NCBI GenBank assembly: GCA_027484425.1
Contig: JAIXSZ010000081.1
Coordinates: forward strand, 186,001 to 250,000
From: Sphingobacteriales bacterium
GTDB lineage: Bacteria; Bacteroidota; Bacteroidia; Chitinophagales; Chitinophagaceae
Direction: 5' to 3'
Length of the DNA: 64,000 bases
Shown: positions 26,661 through 33,939 of the stretch, piece by piece
How positions within the stretch are numbered: position 1 is the first letter of the stretch
Layout: every line of letters begins with the position of its first letter
Position numbers and translations under genes: made by a program
The notes under the pieces: generated by a model
What the model was told of the DNA's origin: nothing
Seen by the model: only the letters and a program-made list of their open reading frames with translations
Database searches by the model: none

Positions 26661-28196
26661 CTACTTTAATATATAGATTATTTTGCTGAATATTATATTG
26701 CTATTGTCTGAAACTATTATCATGTAGTTGCCATTATCTAAGTCACCTACATCGATGGTTGTTTCGAAAGTATTTGACTTAATGTTAATGGACTTAATAG
26801 TTCTTCCTTGAGTATCTGTAATGGAAATAACATAATTACTAAGCCGTATGCTACTGCTGATGTGTAAGGTGTTTTGGGTAGGATTGGGATATACAGAAAA
26901 TTTATTCTTTTTAGAATCCGTAATATTTGCCGTCCATGGAGCAAAAACAGCAAGAAACAAATCAACTAAACCATGATTATGTAAAGTTGAGAAAGTACCG
27001 TTGCTTAAATAATAAGATCCACCAACCAAAACGGTACCGTCAGCCAAAGGATATACTATTTGCCCTCTATCTTTATCATTGCTGCTCATCACCATCTCAT
27101 GCAAGAGATTACCAGAACTATCTGTATGAACTAAGTACACATCATCGTAATTTTCATAATTAAATCCATTTATCCATACGCTGCCATCTGTAGCCTTGCA
27201 TATAGCCAATGGTACTTCGGTATTGGCAGTGCCATAGCAGTTGCTCCATACTATATTGCCTAAGGTATCAACCTCCACTACCCAATAGTCGCCACCACCG
27301 TGATAATTGACTACATCGTGGTCGGAGGAGCTGGTATTGACTGCCATGATGACACCACCTGAGCCATTGCTACAAGCAGCAGTAGCAGCATCGTGCGAGC
27401 TGCCCCCCATGCAACGATGCCACATGATGCCGCCTGTATCGTTGAGCCTAACCAAATATGCTGACCCACCACCAGGATTGCCAGTGCAATCGTAATCGTA
27501 AGACCCTGTACCACCTACTACATAAAACCCATTGTCGGGACCTGGCACCAATGCTGCGCCACTCTCATGCTCAGTGCCTCCTATTACCCTACTCCATACT
27601 TTGTATCCATTACTATCAACCTTGAGCAGCCAGATATCGAAAGTGCTCCAAGAGCCATAATGTGTAAGTACATTGGTATCTGTTCTGTGCGATTCGCCCA
27701 TCATTATATAACCACCATCGTTGGTGGGCATCATAGCATTGAGCAATGAACCAAATCCTTTGCTATAGTTGCGCTGCCAAATAGTATTGCCTGCGGCATC
27801 TTGTTTGGTGATAAGCCACCCCCATCCTGCTGTTGAGTTGAACAAACCACCTAAAACAACAGATTTGTCAGGTTTAGGGAAAATATGTAATAAAAAACTA
27901 TCTCCACTAAATCCATAACACTTAGACCATTCAATTACAGTTGCATTTTGGTTATATTTTATAAATATTTCTCTTTTTGAAATGTCATTACAAAATGAAT
28001 CTATGTTACCAGTCCCTATTGTTGAAGATGTTTCAATATGAATAATAAATCCGTCGTCTATAGTTTTTTTAATAGTGGGTGTAAACGCTTCGCCACCATT
28101 TCCCCCTATCCCTTTCAAAGAAAGCATGTGTGGCTCTGGCACCTGCGCCTGTGAGCAGAAAGGCAGAAAAAGGAAGAGAAAAAGGAGCTTTTTCAT
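26661..28196 (-). CDS. T9SS type A sorting domain protein with repeated propeller-like units
   Basis: 511-aa secreted protein. Signal peptide (MKKLLFLFLFLPFCSQAQ), then about six repeats built around DGGYIMMGES, YLVRLNDTGGIMWHRCMGGS and WVVEVDTLGNIVWSNCYG, a pattern common in surface proteins of Bacteroidota. The C-terminal about 75 residues form a type A sorting domain (FSVYPNPTQNTLHISS, ITDTQGRTI, DLDNGNYMIIVSD). No catalytic residues recognised. The signal peptide and upstream leader are near copies of those of the NHL-repeat gene at 31949. Confidence 0.8.
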   Translation of the reverse strand: MKKLLFLFLFLPFCSQAQVPEPHMLSLKGIGGNGGEAFTPTIKKTIDDGFIIHIETSSTIGTGNIDSFCNDISKREIFIKYNQNATVIEWSKCYGFSGDSFLLHIFPKPDKSVVLGGLFNSTAGWGWLITKQDAAGNTIWQRNYSKGFGSLLNAMMPTNDGGYIMMGESHRTDTNVLTHYGSWSTFDIWLLKVDSNGYKVWSRVIGGTEHESGAALVPGPDNGFYVVGGTGSYDYDCTGNPGGGSAYLVRLNDTGGIMWHRCMGGSSHDAATAACSNGSGGVIMAVNTSSSDHDVVNYHGGGDYWVVEVDTLGNIVWSNCYGTANTEVPLAICKATDGSVWINGFNYENYDDVYLVHTDSSGNLLHEMVMSSNDKDRGQIVYPLADGTVLVGGSYYLSNGTFSTLHNHGLVDLFLAVFAPWTANITDSKKNKFSVYPNPTQNTLHISSSIRLSNYVISITDTQGRTIKSINIKSNTFETTIDVGDLDNGNYMIIVSDNSNIIFSKIIYILK

Positions 28197-28393: not shown

Positions 28394-28792
28394 TTATCCA
28401 TACAAACCAACCACTAAAAATGCCCAGCTAAAGTATGTCCACAATAATGTAAACAAAACATGTATGGCAGTTTCAAAGATTTTGCCCTGCCACAACTTAG
28501 GGGAATAAACGAATAGCTGAAAAAACAGCCTGACTGCCCAGAAAAAAGAAAAGCCTAAACAAATAACATGGCCTAGTGGACTGAGTAGTAAATCGGCAGT
28601 ATTGTGGATACACAATAGCCCCATGAGTAGCACAGTGAGGAAGATAAAAAAGGTATGCACATACATCATTTGCCGGTTGATGAGTGATAGACCGGCGAGG
28701 TCTTTTTTCCAACCAAAATAGGTAGGGAAACCTATGTGTATGAATGCGAGTAGTACTAGTAAGTAGCCAATTAGCTGAAGATGTAGTCCCAT
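28394..28792 (-). CDS. Small four-TM membrane protein
   Basis: 132 aa, almost entirely hydrophobic with four predicted helices; loop motifs FPTYFGWKKDLAGLSLINRQ and FVYSPKLWQGK. No family recognised with certainty. The frame is open further upstream, but the ATG at 28792 lies 1 base from the stop of the methyltransferase gene and gives a clean N-terminus. Last gene of the set DoxX-like, DUF2071, methyltransferase, this protein. Confidence 0.65.
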   Translation of the reverse strand: MGLHLQLIGYLLVLLAFIHIGFPTYFGWKKDLAGLSLINRQMMYVHTFFIFLTVLLMGLLCIHNTADLLLSPLGHVICLGFSFFWAVRLFFQLFVYSPKLWQGKIFETAIHVLFTLLWTYFSWAFLVVGLYG

Positions 28793-28793
28793 A

Positions 28794-29543
28794 TTATTGT
28801 AGGATAAATGTAGTGATGAATCTGTTTGCGGCAATAGTATGTACCGGCTGTAGGTGGGCGCCTGTGAATGTTTTGTGCCACTCGTGGCTGGGGTAAAAAT
28901 GAAGGAACCCAATGTTGTAAGCTATAAAATTTGGTAGGTTTCGTAGGTGCTCTGTCACTAGTATTGTGCCACCGGGCTTCAGGCATCTTTTCAGCTCTTT
29001 GAAAAACTGGATTCTTTCTTCGGTATTCCTTATTTCGTGGGCTGCAAAGATGAGTGTGATGCAGTCTGCACTGGCATTAGCTAGTGGCAGCGTTTGTGCT
29101 GGTATGCTCACAGTGCCGGGATAAGGTGGATAGACTTTTCTGGCTCTTCTGATAGATACTTCGGTGTGCGTGAGCGGGTGATAAAAGTCGTATACCAGCA
29201 GGGTAGCATTGCTGAATGTAGCTGCTATTTTTTGGCTGGTTTCGTCGAAGCCAGCGTGTATGTTGATGATGGTAGCACCATTGGCAATAGTGATATCGTT
29301 CAACCATGCTAAATCATACAGATTGCTGCGGTCGTAGATATAATGAGATACTAGCAAAGACAACACTGTGCTACCTGCTACAAGCATAGCGGCTACTGCC
29401 AAAAGCGTGGCAACTGGTGGAGGGGTGCTAGCAGCAATACTAAGTAGTAACCCAATAAGGAGTGCTGCCAACACGTAAAAATGCCAGTTGAACCTGATAA
29501 TGTTCCACACGCCCTGATAAGGTGTTCTTAGGTTTTTTGCCAT
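28794..29543 (-). CDS. Membrane-anchored class I SAM-dependent methyltransferase
   Basis: 249 aa. Two N-terminal TM helices (about 17-65) tether a Rossmann methyltransferase domain. Motif I reads TIINIHAGFDETS rather than the usual D.GCG.G; later motifs are normal: LPLANASADCITLIFAAHEI, ELKRCLKPGGTILVTEHL. The unusual first motif may alter SAM binding or mark a distinct subfamily. Overlaps the DUF2071 gene by 16 bases at its start. Substrate unknown; the anchor suggests a lipid or quinone-like substrate. Confidence 0.8.
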   Translation of the reverse strand: MAKNLRTPYQGVWNIIRFNWHFYVLAALLIGLLLSIAASTPPPVATLLAVAAMLVAGSTVLSLLVSHYIYDRSNLYDLAWLNDITIANGATIINIHAGFDETSQKIAATFSNATLLVYDFYHPLTHTEVSIRRARKVYPPYPGTVSIPAQTLPLANASADCITLIFAAHEIRNTEERIQFFKELKRCLKPGGTILVTEHLRNLPNFIAYNIGFLHFYPSHEWHKTFTGAHLQPVHTIAANRFITTFILQ

Positions 29544-30271
29544 AGTTCGGTTCTACCTTTTTTCCAGTGGTAAGGTACGTCTGTTATCATAAATGCATTG
29601 GCAAGGACAGCCCCTTGCAGCTGCATTTTGTTTATAAAGCCTACATCTGCCTTTAGTATACTTATGGGTGTGGGTGTCCACTCTTCTCTTACTCCTTCAA
29701 CTATTAGTACTTTATGGGTGGTTTGGTTGTAGCCAAAAGTGAAGGGCATGGGTCCAGTGAATCTTCGGGCTTCTTTCCAACTGGGGAATGGTGAGTTTGT
29801 AGGCAATGAGGCTTGCTCATTGCTGGTATCTGCCACCACAATGAGTGCAGACTTTGCCGACTGGATAGTTGTCGATGAGCCTTCGGTTTTCAGGGAAATA
29901 TCGGTGGTGGTATAGTTGTAATGAGTGAAAAGGTTGCCCAATAATGCCATTTTTTGCTTGTCGGTTTCGGATTGTACAATATACAAACCACGTAGTCTTT
30001 TGCCTCTTCGGTCGGTGTATCTTACAAATATCCTGTACCCTACCAAAACAAAATCATTGCCCATAAACTTAGGAAAACCCTTGGGGCGAAGGTGATGAGC
30101 GGTAACAACTGCTACTGCTACAAAACCCCATTTGCCGTCCCAAGTATCGAGCTCTAAACAAGGGGGCAAGAGGGCGGTAAGCTGCTGCGCAGGTATGGCA
30201 TAGGTAAGCACTATGGTAGAAGAAAAGAAAGCCTCTACTGCAAATGGGTGATTTTTGAGGAAGGATAACAT
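29528..30271 (-). CDS. DUF2071 (YqjF-like) family protein
   Basis: 247-aa soluble protein. It has the DUF2071 features LTYAIPAQQLTALLPPCLELD, FVAVAVVTAHHLRPKGFPKF and YRIFVRYTDRRGKRLRGLYIVQSE, related to the acetoacetate decarboxylase-like fold. No activity is established for the family. Sits 12 bases after the DoxX-like gene and overlaps the methyltransferase gene, indicating one operon. Confidence 0.8.
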   Translation of the reverse strand: MLSFLKNHPFAVEAFFSSTIVLTYAIPAQQLTALLPPCLELDTWDGKWGFVAVAVVTAHHLRPKGFPKFMGNDFVLVGYRIFVRYTDRRGKRLRGLYIVQSETDKQKMALLGNLFTHYNYTTTDISLKTEGSSTTIQSAKSALIVVADTSNEQASLPTNSPFPSWKEARRFTGPMPFTFGYNQTTHKVLIVEGVREEWTPTPISILKADVGFINKMQLQGAVLANAFMITDVPYHWKKGRTELWQKT

Positions 30272-30283
30272 AATGCGTGCGGT

Positions 30284-30676
30284 TTATGTTGATTTTGGTG
30301 TGGTGCTGAGCCGGTAGTGGGTGTAAATACAAACAATAAGGACAGCAGCGAGTAAGATATTGCCCCTACCAAACAACAACAGATGAGGCACCATGGTAAA
30401 CTCTAAAATATTCATAATAGCTATGGTGGCTATCTGGACGATAGCGCACCATTTGGGTTGTATCTTGCTGAGTATCCATACTACCATTAGTATTTCGGTA
30501 ATGCCTATTGTAGTTGTGAGGAGCGCTGCATGATCATAGCCCAGTATCTCGCCTACTATTTGCCGGTGACGGGGTACGAGGTTGAGTACTTTGCAGCAAA
30601 AACCATTGATGAGCCACACCAAGGTAATACCCCAATGGAGCAGATGCAGCAGCCGTATTTTGAAACTATTGGTCAT
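30284..30676 (-). CDS. DoxX-like four-TM membrane protein
   Basis: 130 aa with four hydrophobic helices and the DoxX-like pattern WGITLVWLINGFCCKVLNLVPRH..IVGEIL and GITEILMVVWIL. DoxX relatives are linked to quinone/thiol redox functions in other bacteria; the role here is unproven. First gene of the four-gene minus-strand set; 41 bases separate it from the COQ4 homologue stop upstream, so it may share that transcript. Confidence 0.7.
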   Translation of the reverse strand: MTNSFKIRLLHLLHWGITLVWLINGFCCKVLNLVPRHRQIVGEILGYDHAALLTTTIGITEILMVVWILSKIQPKWCAIVQIATIAIMNILEFTMVPHLLLFGRGNILLAAVLIVCIYTHYRLSTTPKST

Positions 30677-30717: not shown

Positions 30718-31263
30718 TCAGATTTTATCAAACTTCGCCAGTTTTTCAAGCAGGTCCGGATTGTTTACCGGTTGGTGGTTGATGATCTTTTTGAGGTCGG
30801 CAAAGTTTTCGTTTAGTAGTTCCTTAAAATTCCACTTTGCTATGCTGCGGGCTGTACGTCCGCGTGCGAACTGACGGCGGAAGTAACCCCATTGGTCGGG
30901 CAGCATCATGCCAGCAAAAACTGCTGTGCCGAGCGTGAAGGGAGATATTTTGCCGTTGCCAATAAGGTAAAACTGCATTGCTGCCTCGTCGTAAATGTGC
31001 GTACTGAAATCGAGCAGTATGTGGAAAGCATCGTGCCGCTCTACCTTGGGTACTGGTTGCAGCTCTTCGTCTCGCAGAAACATACCTAACTCACGCCCTA
31101 GGGTTCCCTTGGGGTAGGTCATTAGATCTTCCATACGCAGGCCCCAGGGCTGGCGTTTTTCGTACAACCGTGCGTGTATAGGTATAACCTCGCCCAGTAA
31201 GAATAAAAGAATGCGTTCGCGAACACCATGTTCTGTCTTGTACTTGATAATAATTGGTTTCAT
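30718..31263 (-). CDS. COQ4-like protein
   Basis: 181 aa. Carries the COQ4 metal-binding signature HDxxH-x11-E exactly: H77, D78, H81 and E93, preceded by VPKVERHD. COQ4 acts in ubiquinone biosynthesis, recently linked to C1 oxidative decarboxylation of the quinone head group. Bacteroidota normally make menaquinone, so the substrate here may differ. ATG at 31263; a 24-bp palindrome lies 26 bases upstream, identical in layout to the one before the GbsR-type regulator gene. Confidence 0.8.
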   Translation of the reverse strand: MKPIIIKYKTEHGVRERILLFLLGEVIPIHARLYEKRQPWGLRMEDLMTYPKGTLGRELGMFLRDEELQPVPKVERHDAFHILLDFSTHIYDEAAMQFYLIGNGKISPFTLGTAVFAGMMLPDQWGYFRRQFARGRTARSIAKWNFKELLNENFADLKKIINHQPVNNPDLLEKLAKFDKI

Positions 31264-31288: not shown

Positions 31289-31312
31289 AATTTTCAGAAA
31301 ATATTGAAAGTT
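31289..31312. promoter_or_regulatory. Operator candidate upstream of the COQ4-like gene
   Basis: AATTTTCA-N8-TGAAAGTT. Inner edge 26 bases from the ATG, as at 31897-31920. The spacer contains a TATTTT run on the minus strand that could be part of the -7 box, so binding would block transcription. Confidence 0.6.
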
Positions 31313-31364
31313 ATTGTCCCTTAAAAACCGGGAATTTATCCCGGTAGTAAGTAAGTAAAACCTG

Positions 31365-31871
31365 TTATTTAAATAGTTTGAGTAAGGTACCAGTAAACCA
31401 ATTATCGCTAGCAGCTACCAGTCCTGTCAGTGCTTTGTCGCCTTTTAGCGCAAAGCGCTCTATGGATAGCATGGTTTCCAGAAATTCAGCGCTCTCCTTA
31501 CTAGCACCGCCATCTTCTATTTCTTTGAGGTCAGTTACTGTTTTCAGCAGTGGGTCAAACTCTTTTTTCTTGCGCTCCTGCACTATGCACATTGCCACTT
31601 TCCAAATGTCTTTTTCTGCTTGAAAAAATTCTTTGCGCTCTCCTGGTTTCAGTACCTTGTTCACTAGTTTCCAGTCTATCAGTTCGCGCAGATTCATATT
31701 TGCATTGCCTCTGCTTATCTGTAGTTGCTCCATCACATCGTCGGCGCACAGCGCATCTGGTGCTATTAGGAGCAATGCATGTATTTGCGCCATTGTCCGG
31801 TTAATTCCCCACTGGGTGCCTAGCACCCCCCAACTCTGTATAAACTCCTGCTTGGCTTCTTCGAACTTCAT
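31365..31871 (-). CDS. GbsR/MarR-type transcriptional regulator
   Basis: 168-aa winged-helix repressor. N-terminal FIQSWGVLGTQWGINRTMAQ and the recognition region VMEQLQISRGNANMNLREL (about 45-63) match the GbsR branch of MarR. The C-terminal half is helical with a Lys-rich segment and a likely dimerisation helix. Upstream on the same strand of the COQ4-like gene, 101 bases away. It has its own palindromic operator candidate, which implies autoregulation and control of the downstream genes (inference). Confidence 0.85.
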   Translation of the reverse strand: MKFEEAKQEFIQSWGVLGTQWGINRTMAQIHALLLIAPDALCADDVMEQLQISRGNANMNLRELIDWKLVNKVLKPGERKEFFQAEKDIWKVAMCIVQERKKKEFDPLLKTVTDLKEIEDGGASKESAEFLETMLSIERFALKGDKALTGLVAASDNWFTGTLLKLFK

Positions 31872-31896
31872 GACACAAAGAAAGGACTATTTATTG

Positions 31897-31920
31897 AACT
31901 TTCAAAATTTACTGAAAGTT
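31897..31920. promoter_or_regulatory. Operator candidate upstream of the GbsR/MarR-type gene
   Basis: Perfect AACTTTCA-N8-TGAAAGTT palindrome, 26 bases before the ATG at 31871. Same arms, spacer length and distance as the site before the COQ4-like gene. Confidence 0.65.
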
Positions 31921-31948: not shown

Positions 31949-33286
31949 TTATTTTACTACCGTTAATTTATTAGTTGTAGAAAAATGTTCTGTCGTTGCT
32001 TTGATAAAATAAACACCAGATGGAACATCTAGGTCTAGCTGTTCTACACTGTTGGTTTTGATGTCAAATTTCTTTACTTCCTTACCCCATACATTGGTGA
32101 TAACTATAGTCACTAGCTGCGTTTTTAGTCCTTCGATAGAGATGCTAAACTTACCATTACTGGGGTTTGGATATATGCTGATACTTGGTATTAGTTTTTC
32201 CGCTGTAACAAAATCCAAGAAGTTAGCTATTTTCCTAATCCTGTTGTTGTTCTCATCTGAAATATAAATGTCAAGACCGTCAAAAGTAATACTTGTTATT
32301 ACTGTAAATTTTGTATCCAATGGCGGTAAATAGTCTCCATTGAATCCGCCAACACCATAACCTGCTACGTTTGTAATGATGCCTGCTGCGTTTATTTTTC
32401 TTATTCTGCCTTTTATGCCCAATGTGAAGCCATCCCCTCCTTCTGAGATATACACATTTCCTTTATTGTCTACAGCCACATCGAGAGAACCAATTTGAGC
32501 AGCGGTGGCGGGGATATTATCTCCGTTATAACCACCAATACCTGTACCAGCAATGGTAGTGATGATACCCATATTGTCAACTTTACGAATTCTGTATCCC
32601 CCATTTTCGGCAATAAATAGGTTGCCTTGTTTGTCAAGTGCTATGCCTGAAGGTCCCATTAACTGAGCTGAAGTAGCAGGACCTCCATCGCCTAAAACAG
32701 AACCTCCACCTGCTATGGTAGTGATAATACCAGCTGTATCAACTTTACGAATACGTTCATTACCACCATCAGCAATGTACATGTTGCCCAAACTATCTAA
32801 AAAAACATCCGTGGGGTTTTTCAGCAAAGCCGAAGTAGCAGGACCATTGTCGCCAGCAAACCCCCAAACTCCAGTACCCACAACTGTGGTGATAATGCCA
32901 GAAGTGCTGATTTTCCTGATGCAACTATTGTGTACTTGAGCGAAATAAACATTGCCCGTATCATCGACAAACACCCCATAAGATATACTGATCTTGGCTG
33001 ATGTAGCGGGTCCGTTATCGCCATCGTAGCCGATAAGACCATTGCCAGCTATTGTAGTAATAACTCCGGAAGTGTTAATTTTTCTGATTCGGTAATTACC
33101 TGCATCAGAAAAATAAATATTGTGATTTTTATCTACGAATACCCCTTGTGGACCAAAAATATCGGCGGTTATAGCTAACATACTATCTCCGTTGTAGCCT
33201 TGAATACCTGTACCAGCAACTGTGGTAACAACCTGACTAAAAGAAGTATAAGGCAGGAAAAGGAATAGGAAAAGGAGCTTTTTCAT
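31949..33286 (-). CDS. NHL-repeat T9SS-secreted protein
   Basis: 445 aa. Signal peptide (MKKLLFLFLFLPYTSFSQ), then six or so NHL beta-propeller units, each with TTIAGTG..GYNGD..PATSAQ and GNVYISDGGN.RIRKV landmarks, then a type A sorting domain (SIYPNPSNGKFSISI, NVWGKEVKKF, VPSGVYFIKATT). Exported through the type IX system. Propellers of this kind bind ligands or proteins; no enzyme motif is visible. Shares its signal peptide and leader with the 26661-28196 gene. Confidence 0.85.
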   Translation of the reverse strand: MKKLLFLFLFLPYTSFSQVVTTVAGTGIQGYNGDSMLAITADIFGPQGVFVDKNHNIYFSDAGNYRIRKINTSGVITTIAGNGLIGYDGDNGPATSAKISISYGVFVDDTGNVYFAQVHNSCIRKISTSGIITTVVGTGVWGFAGDNGPATSALLKNPTDVFLDSLGNMYIADGGNERIRKVDTAGIITTIAGGGSVLGDGGPATSAQLMGPSGIALDKQGNLFIAENGGYRIRKVDNMGIITTIAGTGIGGYNGDNIPATAAQIGSLDVAVDNKGNVYISEGGDGFTLGIKGRIRKINAAGIITNVAGYGVGGFNGDYLPPLDTKFTVITSITFDGLDIYISDENNNRIRKIANFLDFVTAEKLIPSISIYPNPSNGKFSISIEGLKTQLVTIVITNVWGKEVKKFDIKTNSVEQLDLDVPSGVYFIKATTEHFSTTNKLTVVK

Positions 33287-33323: not shown

Positions 33324-33731
33324 TTAAAGTTTCAATTGGGTTTTGAATTCATCAATATTCACAACGTTTATGCTTGGGAACGGTATAGATTTTAGTATTG
33401 AAAAATGGCTATCATGAGTGATTAAATAACTTGCACCGGCTGCAACAAAACAATCGACAAACTTGTTGTCATCTTTGTCTGAAATTAAATCCCATTTAAA
33501 AAAAACTTGAGTAAAATGAACGTTGGGTAGTTCTTTTAATGCCGTGAGGAAATTATTTGCTACAATAGGTGCATACTTACGGCTTAATATTTCATCATAC
33601 TCAAATAAAATATCATCAGTAACATAGATGTCAATTTGTTCGTTTAAAATAGCCACTACTAACCAGTGATATATTGATTTTGATGATAATGAAGCTACCA
33701 GAACATTGGTATCAATTACTACTTTAATCAT
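33324..33731 (-). CDS. PIN-domain toxin (COG1569-type ribonuclease)
   Basis: 135-aa nuclease toxin. Motifs: VVIDTNVLVAS (D7), a central acidic region with FEYDEIL, and SDKDDNKFVDCFVAAGASYLITHD, giving the acidic metal-binding set. The ATG at 33731 gives the standard N-terminus MIKVVIDTN; a longer start at 33749 is less likely. Overlaps the antitoxin gene by 8 bases. Targets are unknown; relatives cut RNA. Confidence 0.85.
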   Translation of the reverse strand: MIKVVIDTNVLVASLSSKSIYHWLVVAILNEQIDIYVTDDILFEYDEILSRKYAPIVANNFLTALKELPNVHFTQVFFKWDLISDKDDNKFVDCFVAAGASYLITHDSHFSILKSIPFPSINVVNIDEFKTQLKL

Positions 33732-33939
33732 TTGTAGTATTGTTTTCATTTAGCCACTGGTTCATGGTGGTAGTACTATATTTTTTCTCTTCCCAAATTT
33801 TATCTGCTTCTTCTATTGCTTTTTGGGCAAAGTACGTTGCTAAATACCGTTTTATATTCAACAAATCATTTTCCGGCACATCTGCTGCATAAAGCTTTAA
33901 TAATTCTTGCTGGATGTTACTTAATGAACGGGCTGGCAT
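33724..33939 (-). CDS. Antitoxin partner of the PIN toxin
   Basis: 71-aa acidic, helical protein (MPARSLSNIQQELLKLYAADVP.., EEADKIWEEKKYS). The order antitoxin then overlapping PIN toxin is typical of VapBC-like modules. The N-terminal half may bind DNA, the C-terminal half the toxin. A perfect palindrome overlaps its -7 box. Confidence 0.75.
   Translation of the reverse strand: MPARSLSNIQQELLKLYAADVPENDLLNIKRYLATYFAQKAIEEADKIWEEKKYSTTTMNQWLNENNTTND

Follow-up and report, generated by a model that had tools for sequence, protein, structure and literature searches.

In a stretch of 64,000 nucleotides from a genome of the family Chitinophagaceae (the window), the same palindrome stands before a gene for a GbsR/MarR-type regulator and again before a COQ4-like gene that follows it on the same strand. 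This raises the question whether one regulator controls both itself and the neighbouring run of genes, and what kind of circuit such an arrangement would be. On the plus strand, positions 31289-31312 read AATTTTCAGAAAATATTGAAAGTT (with one arm mismatch) and positions 31897-31920 read AACTTTCAAAATTTACTGAAAGTT, a perfect 8+8 palindrome; the AAYTTTCA-N8 palindrome given for both places in a preliminary description can thus be read from the sequence as described. The same description put both sites at an identical distance of 26 bases from an ATG (31263 and 31871, both on the minus strand). The distance is indeed identical, but 26 is the difference between coordinates and the real spacer between each 24-mer and its ATG measures 25 bases.

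Allowing up to three mismatches, a pattern search of the window returned six matches (three places, both strands) against a mean of 2.1 in shuffled sequence, six being attained by 3 of 100 shuffles, and with zero or one mismatch only the two sites named above are found. They are also the only zero-mismatch copies of a slightly looser pattern in the whole 4.58-Mb window genome (G000), where the single one-mismatch copy lies inside an ORF; at up to two mismatches this genome has 23 forward matches against 7 with a reversed-pattern control. Three near-sites of the window genome were dropped: C4 is located within an ORF, C28 coincides in part with the start predicted for a 138-aa ORF, and C26 carries a mismatch in one arm, with no ORF of at least 70 aa beginning within 300 bases of it. 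The sequence TTCAGAAA after operator 1 was also dropped as a third half-site, as it can be read as the palindrome's own symmetric continuation together with AT-rich sequence. Features of the locus, including the two putative operators, are collected in Table 1.

Table 1. Features of the regulator locus in window coordinates.
Feature	Positions	Strand	Basis and remarks
Operator 1 (putative)	31897..31920		perfect palindrome AACTTTCA-N8-TGAAAGTT, 5' of the regulator gene
Likely -7 promoter element, TTTCTTTG	31876..31883	-	5/6 to TAnnTTTG; 4 bases before the ATG; position inferred
GbsR-type (MarR superfamily) regulator, 168 aa	31365..31871	-	1ku9 match, structure model, Foldseek
Probable terminator of the regulator	31327..31345	-	hairpin ACCGGGA-TAAAT-TCCCGGT followed by T's; folding z -3.43
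Operator 2 (putative)	31289..31312		palindrome 5' of the COQ4-like gene
COQ4-like protein, 181 aa, HDxxH-x11-E	30718..31263	-	PF05019
DoxX-like membrane protein (DoxX_3)	30284..30676	-	PF13781
DUF2071 protein	29528..30271	-	PF09844
UbiE-like methyltransferase, N-terminal membrane segments (read from sequence)	28794..29543	-	PF08241, PF01209
Small membrane protein, last gene of the run	28394..28798	-	no match in family search

The gene names proposed earlier (GbsR/MarR, COQ4-like, DoxX, DUF2071, methyltransferase) hold by family and structure matches, and the five genes behind operator 2 share one strand with short or overlapping gaps. A Pfam search with the regulator gave no match. By sequence its best solved relative is 1ku9/Mj223 (E 3.6e-17), which is, however, archaeal; matches to METTL21D in the same search were judged spurious. 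The predicted structure of the single chain has a mean pLDDT of 87.6, and a Foldseek search with this model ranked 1ku9 first by E-value, with a higher TM-score for 4nb5. The model points to the fold of the GbsR family: an N-terminal winged helix-turn-helix and a C-terminal helical dimerisation part like that of Mj223. Against the NCBIfam CudC equivalog the regulator scores 51.9 bits, under the cut-off of 218, which by this score places it outside the osmostress GbsR/CudC group. The COQ4-like protein exceeds the Pfam Coq4 cut-off (29 bits against 22.9) and carries HDAFH-x11-E in its sequence, which aligns with the motif of 3msq in a weak match (E 0.016); HDxxH-x11-E is a Coq4 signature. Bacteroidota are mostly menaquinone users, so a part of this protein in ubiquinone synthesis would be conjectural. 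A consensus terminator scan of the window listed no terminator after the regulator gene. As to the surroundings, the upstream neighbour on the same strand (31949-33286) is an NHL-repeat protein with a T9SS sorting tail, and the protein at 26661-28196 seems by eye to end in such a tail as well. Positions 33324-33749 encode a PIN-domain protein of the TIGR00305 toxin type, overlapped and preceded by a 71-aa ORF (33724-33939) that could be its antitoxin.

We compared the locus with the genomes of its family (here Chitinophagaceae) and class (Bacteroidia). At E 1e-10, 105 of the 195 family genomes contain a relative of the regulator. All but one of these (G170, whose sequence was not fetched) were used for counting, and 19 separately gathered loci, several of them from genomes already counted, were kept out. 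In 97 of the resulting 104 genomes, the window's included, TTTCA-N8-TGAAA occurs perfect within 200 bases upstream of the regulator; three others match at 9 of the 10 positions and four at fewer. Among 360-base control windows taken elsewhere, with the whole neighbourhood of the regulator excluded, just 1 of 1180 contains a perfect copy. An earlier control gave 49 of 1666, a number that could include operator 2 because only 400 bases around the regulator start had been excluded. At class level (regulator relatives at E 1e-15 in 79 of 247 genomes) a perfect operator 1 is present in 24 of 28 loci of other families, against 1 of 350 in the control; these 28 are the best 30 class matches minus the window and a same-family locus (G034). 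Aligning the regions upstream of the regulator in relatives had been proposed with the preliminary description, and the palindrome proves conserved in such an alignment, ending 27-29 bases before the start codon in 68 of 100 aligned sites. Autoregulation is strongly supported by this comparison.

The aligned sites also suggest a promoter geometry. When TAnnTTTG was sought 12-23 bases behind the palindrome (without a shuffled control), its best match, at 4-6 of 6 positions, proved to lie 15-17 bases after the palindrome in 100 of 100 sites. This sequence is the -7 box of the main flavobacterial sigma factor (PMC9723704). If it serves as -7 box here, the right arm of the palindrome, which in operator 1 holds TTTTG, would fall at -33, and the transcript would have hardly any leader; leaderless mRNAs are rare in flavobacteria (5.5%; PMC9723704).

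Operator 2 is less widespread, and the genes behind it change. In the interval from 60 bases upstream to 300 bases downstream of the regulator's stop codon, a perfect TTTCA-N8-TGAAA was found in 60 of the 104 family genomes (44 are without one) and in 14 of the 28 loci from other families, to be compared with the same controls as for operator 1 (1 of 1180 and 1 of 350). Both operators are perfect in 59 of the family loci, operator 1 only in 38, operator 2 only in one and neither in six. The alignment of operator 2 took 59 of the 60 loci (L128 dropped out); its consensus shows a T-tract roughly 12 bases ahead of the palindrome, in many cases accompanied by a GC hairpin, though in some relatives no GC stem is visible beside the tract. 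The next start codon follows 16-19 bases after the palindrome in 28 of the 59. Inspection by eye of the aligned relatives revealed no -7 box at operator 2, and no clear promoter emerged there from these relatives together with a consensus scan of the window. Among the cases in which the first gene behind a perfect operator 2 could be placed in a group, the commonest encode a small four-helix membrane protein, another small membrane protein, a TIGR01777-like epimerase and a DCC1-like protein, all named by resemblance, with only the epimerase of G026 checked against Pfam. Operator 2 is retained in G097 and G171, both from the same genus as the window, where it precedes a gene for a small membrane protein; operator 1 is kept in G097 and matches at 9 of 10 positions in G171. 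No COQ4-like gene was found in G097 at E 1e-6, and G171 has a 34%-identical one elsewhere in its genome.

The preliminary description had placed the COQ4-like gene under the regulator; comparison does not show COQ4 to be a conserved target. There are 24 COQ4-like loci in the family, from 22 of the 195 genomes, and a perfect palindrome within about 1.5 kb occurs at only two of them, those of the window genome and of G026, which belongs to a different genus. These are also the only genomes with COQ4 behind operator 2 (in G026 as the third gene). Ten further COQ4-like loci of the class (E 1e-25) are without the palindrome, including a gene of another family that is 68% identical (G430). COQ4 was rejected as a general target on these counts, which, as far as genome comparison goes, make it a local payload.

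A different palindrome, CTTTG-N5-CAAAG, was noticed in 21 of the 34 COQ4-like loci examined (including L057-L077 and L368-L376; no chance control). In several loci it lies directly before the COQ4-like gene, and the upstream sequence ends, judged by eye, in what could be another small regulator gene. The COQ4-like locus of G430 has neither this palindrome nor the GbsR operator; upstream of its 68%-identical gene lies a 97-aa protein that looks winged-helix-like by eye (L367:263-556).

More distant targets were sought through pattern sites in 20 genomes, which led to the promoters of a type II NADH dehydrogenase (Pyr_redox_2 + NDH2_C) and of a pair of small membrane proteins. Among 23 hand-picked distal sites, six precede the NADH dehydrogenase, seven the membrane pair, and one lies 400 bases before a DoxX gene; the other nine were dropped, being located within genes, far from them or ahead of unrelated ones (the three near-sites of the window genome included). 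The membrane pair consists of adjacent genes (L227:2121-2888), has no Pfam match, and is found behind the operator in five genera among those examined.

For the NADH dehydrogenase we could relate the site to the presence of the regulator. In family genomes a perfect operator lies within 300 bases upstream of the gene in 48 of 54 regulator-positive cases against 1 of 13 regulator-negative ones (Fisher p 3.6e-8, uncorrected for kinship), leaving 6 of the 54 without a site. These 67 genomes hold copies at least 60% identical to that of G160, among the matches listed; G012 and G158 were added to the count later. Thirteen loci missed by tblastn were placed by coordinates, nine of the counted clade and four of another clade, the latter being weak in that the assumed start codon is not ATG. 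The one regulator-negative genome with a site is G012, which is 72% complete and may for that reason simply lack the contig with the regulator. The other 12 negatives are at least 98% complete, so that among near-complete genomes without regulator the site occurs in 0 of 12. A contrast is seen even within one genus, where G008 has both regulator and site and G179, without the regulator, matches at no more than 8 of 10 positions. Among the matches listed, 54 of the 105 regulator-positive genomes have a copy of the tested clade. NADH dehydrogenases of other clades have the site in 1 of 9 copies examined, and the copy of the window genome (57% identical, of another clade) is among those without. 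DUF2071-like genes, named by resemblance, lie behind operator 2 or behind the target NADH dehydrogenase in a few relatives; in G160 such a gene (L215:3425-4000) follows the operator-bearing dehydrogenase.

Members of the membrane pair were sought in the window genome at E 1e-5 and none was found. Given also that its NADH dehydrogenase has no site, the known targets here would be only the regulator itself and the COQ4 run. Counted over whole genomes, strict palindromes average 3.10 per genome in the 105 regulator-positive genomes, where the reversed control gives 0.58, and 1.33 in the 90 regulator-negative ones, where it gives 0.77 (a mild excess). A looser search over 98 genomes was discarded as too noisy.

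A sequence of this type is bound by a characterised homologue. CydE of Alishewanella sp. WH16-1 is a GbsR-type repressor of cytochrome bd with two footprinted sites, the first of which, TATTTCAGAAATTTCTGAAAGTTCA, was confirmed by gel shift with a short fragment (PMC6096048); both the binding of such a sequence and the repression have thus been demonstrated by others. Site 1 (TTTCAGAAATTTCTGAAAGTTCA) shares both its half-sites and the 8 bases between them as a spacer length with TTTCA-N8-TGAAA, whereas the second footprinted site, GGGATGCGCATATGCAAAT, is unlike the palindrome of the window, and neither 'palindrome' nor 'motif' occurs as a word in the text of that paper (PMC6096048). The likeness extends to the GbsR type, to the binding by CydE of its own promoter region and to its respiratory target, cytochrome bd, which is encoded in one operon with cydE; the reported inducer is sulfate (PMC6096048). 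Here, unlike in that system, a second, like operator precedes a separate COQ4 run, and in relatives an NADH dehydrogenase gene elsewhere in the genome. Moreover, neither cydAB nor cydDC adjoins the regulator gene, the neighbours found being COQ4, DoxX, DUF2071 and methyltransferase genes. Having a CydE-type operator but no cyd neighbour, the regulator would work like CydE without being filed as CydE.

Further support for the operator comes from proteobacterial plasmids, 166 records of which matched the regulator (33-44% identity in the 40 best) and nine loci of which were hand-picked. The palindrome lies 12-26 bases before the start in all six fetched relatives beside cydD or cydAB, at loci of 54-69% GC. 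A copy from Cupriavidus that is not annotated likewise shows AACTTTCA-N8-TGAAAGTT, with half-sites identical to those of the window; one of two orphan homologues matches at 9 of 10 positions and the other is without a site. The palindromes before cyd-linked relatives, CydE site 1 and the NADH dehydrogenase link together identify the circuit, as judged by comparison, as a CydE-like respiratory one.

Other members of the family show both shared and deviating traits. CioR of Chromobacterium violaceum is likewise GbsR-type and a direct feedback repressor of its own respiratory operon, there encoding cytochrome bd, and iron and zinc disrupt its binding in vitro (PMC11837568). Among the Bacillus regulators GbsR, OpcR and OpuAR, OpcR has its operator on the promoter and GbsR has it past the start site (PMC7396694, PMC6207618). 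Unlike here, the GbsR operator has a 4-base spacer and the targets of all three are osmoprotectant genes; GbsR senses choline, and OpuAR choline and glycine betaine (PMC7396694, PMC6207618). The 2018 survey of the GbsR family reports that the aromatic cage for choline/betaine is absent outside the osmostress group, and that gene neighbourhoods give no consistent picture for Bacteroidetes (PMC6207618). The preliminary description knew of no earlier account of the circuit. This stands for the regulon, as none of the papers listed in searches of the open-licence literature deals with a GbsR regulon of Bacteroidetes or with TTTCA-N8-TGAAA (subscription work may exist), but not for the operator type, which had already been footprinted for CydE (PMC6096048).

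Taking these results together, we consider it very probable that the regulator is a CydE-like repressor of the GbsR family that acts on TTTCA-N8-TGAAA and controls itself, the run behind operator 2 and, in relatives, respiratory targets. It would be a winged-helix protein, most likely a dimer, of the CydE-like (respiratory) branch. At operator 1 it would cover the -33 region of its own near-leaderless promoter and so repress itself; at operator 2, just past the terminator-like hairpin, it would stop transcription into the COQ4-DoxX-DUF2071-methyltransferase-membrane-protein run. In relatives it would also repress the type II NADH dehydrogenase, the membrane-protein pairs and any genes placed behind operator 2, and release might come from a signal linked to respiratory or quinone trouble. 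The earlier suggestion of one regulator for itself and the adjacent operon thereby gains support from the palindromes on either side of the gene, from the NADH dehydrogenase site that tracks the regulator, and from the footprint and gel shift of the CydE homologue (PMC6096048).

Several alternatives have to be weighed against this reading. The palindrome might be read by some other regulator encoded elsewhere, the GbsR-type gene being merely one of its targets. That the regulator binds the palindrome here is itself deduced from comparison, and another reader would also suit the AT-rich palindromes elsewhere in the window genome and the mild excess that persists in regulator-negative genomes. 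Nonetheless, a palindrome on both sides of the regulator gene across the class, the missing NADH dehydrogenase site in near-complete genomes that lack the regulator, and the resemblance to the CydE footprint (PMC6096048) render such a reader quite improbable. Still less credible is that the repeat is mainly a -33 promoter element, kept for RNA polymerase and not for a repressor. The fit of the right arm TTTTGAAA to -33 and the uniform position of the TAnnTTTG match would agree with it, but the left arm is conserved equally well in the aligned operator 1 sites, the palindrome lies nearer to the -7 box at NADH dehydrogenase promoters than at the regulator promoter, and operator 2 has no matching -7 box by eye. 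In addition, the palindrome is present in GC-rich proteobacterial loci, and in the NADH dehydrogenase contrast it depends on the presence of the regulator.

We give just as little room to activation of the operon in place of repression: position by itself does not preclude activation at every promoter, yet the operators appear to overlap the promoter core and the characterised relatives GbsR, OpcR, OpuAR, CydE and CioR are repressors (PMC7396694, PMC6207618, PMC6096048, PMC11837568). A variant that is compatible with repression by a CydE-like regulator concerns operator 2, which might act as a roadblock or RNA element on read-through from the regulator promoter. The T-tract, often with hairpin, shortly before operator 2 (in the 59-genome consensus and as a hairpin in the window) and the lack of a clear promoter there would favour it, and B. 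subtilis GbsR does act as a roadblock downstream of the start site (PMC7396694). On the other hand, a terminator ahead of operator 2 argues for a promoter of its own, and the T-tract has no visible GC stem in some relatives, so that we regard this variant as possible but rather doubtful.

With the CydE-like repressor as the preferred reading, it may be argued more broadly, and we incline moderately to this view, that TTTCA-N8-TGAAA and its GbsR-type reader form one ancient code common to Proteobacteria and Bacteroidia for the quinone side of respiration (cytochrome bd or type II NADH dehydrogenase). In Bacteroidia the code would have taken the form of an operator-regulator-terminator-operator cassette, an exchangeable socket for membrane and quinone-related genes that here holds COQ4.

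Overall, looking at operators instead of neighbours gives the beginning of a consistent picture for the Bacteroidetes GbsR group. On this evidence the regulator seems to act on its own gene, on the set downstream of operator 2 and, in at least 48 of the 105 regulator-bearing family genomes, on a type II NADH dehydrogenase encoded elsewhere. An uncharacterised group of regulators thereby becomes directly testable, and candidate roles in respiratory or quinone stress are suggested for unnamed membrane proteins and for bacterial relatives of COQ4, DoxX and DUF2071. The motif may also be used to predict such regulons in other phyla.
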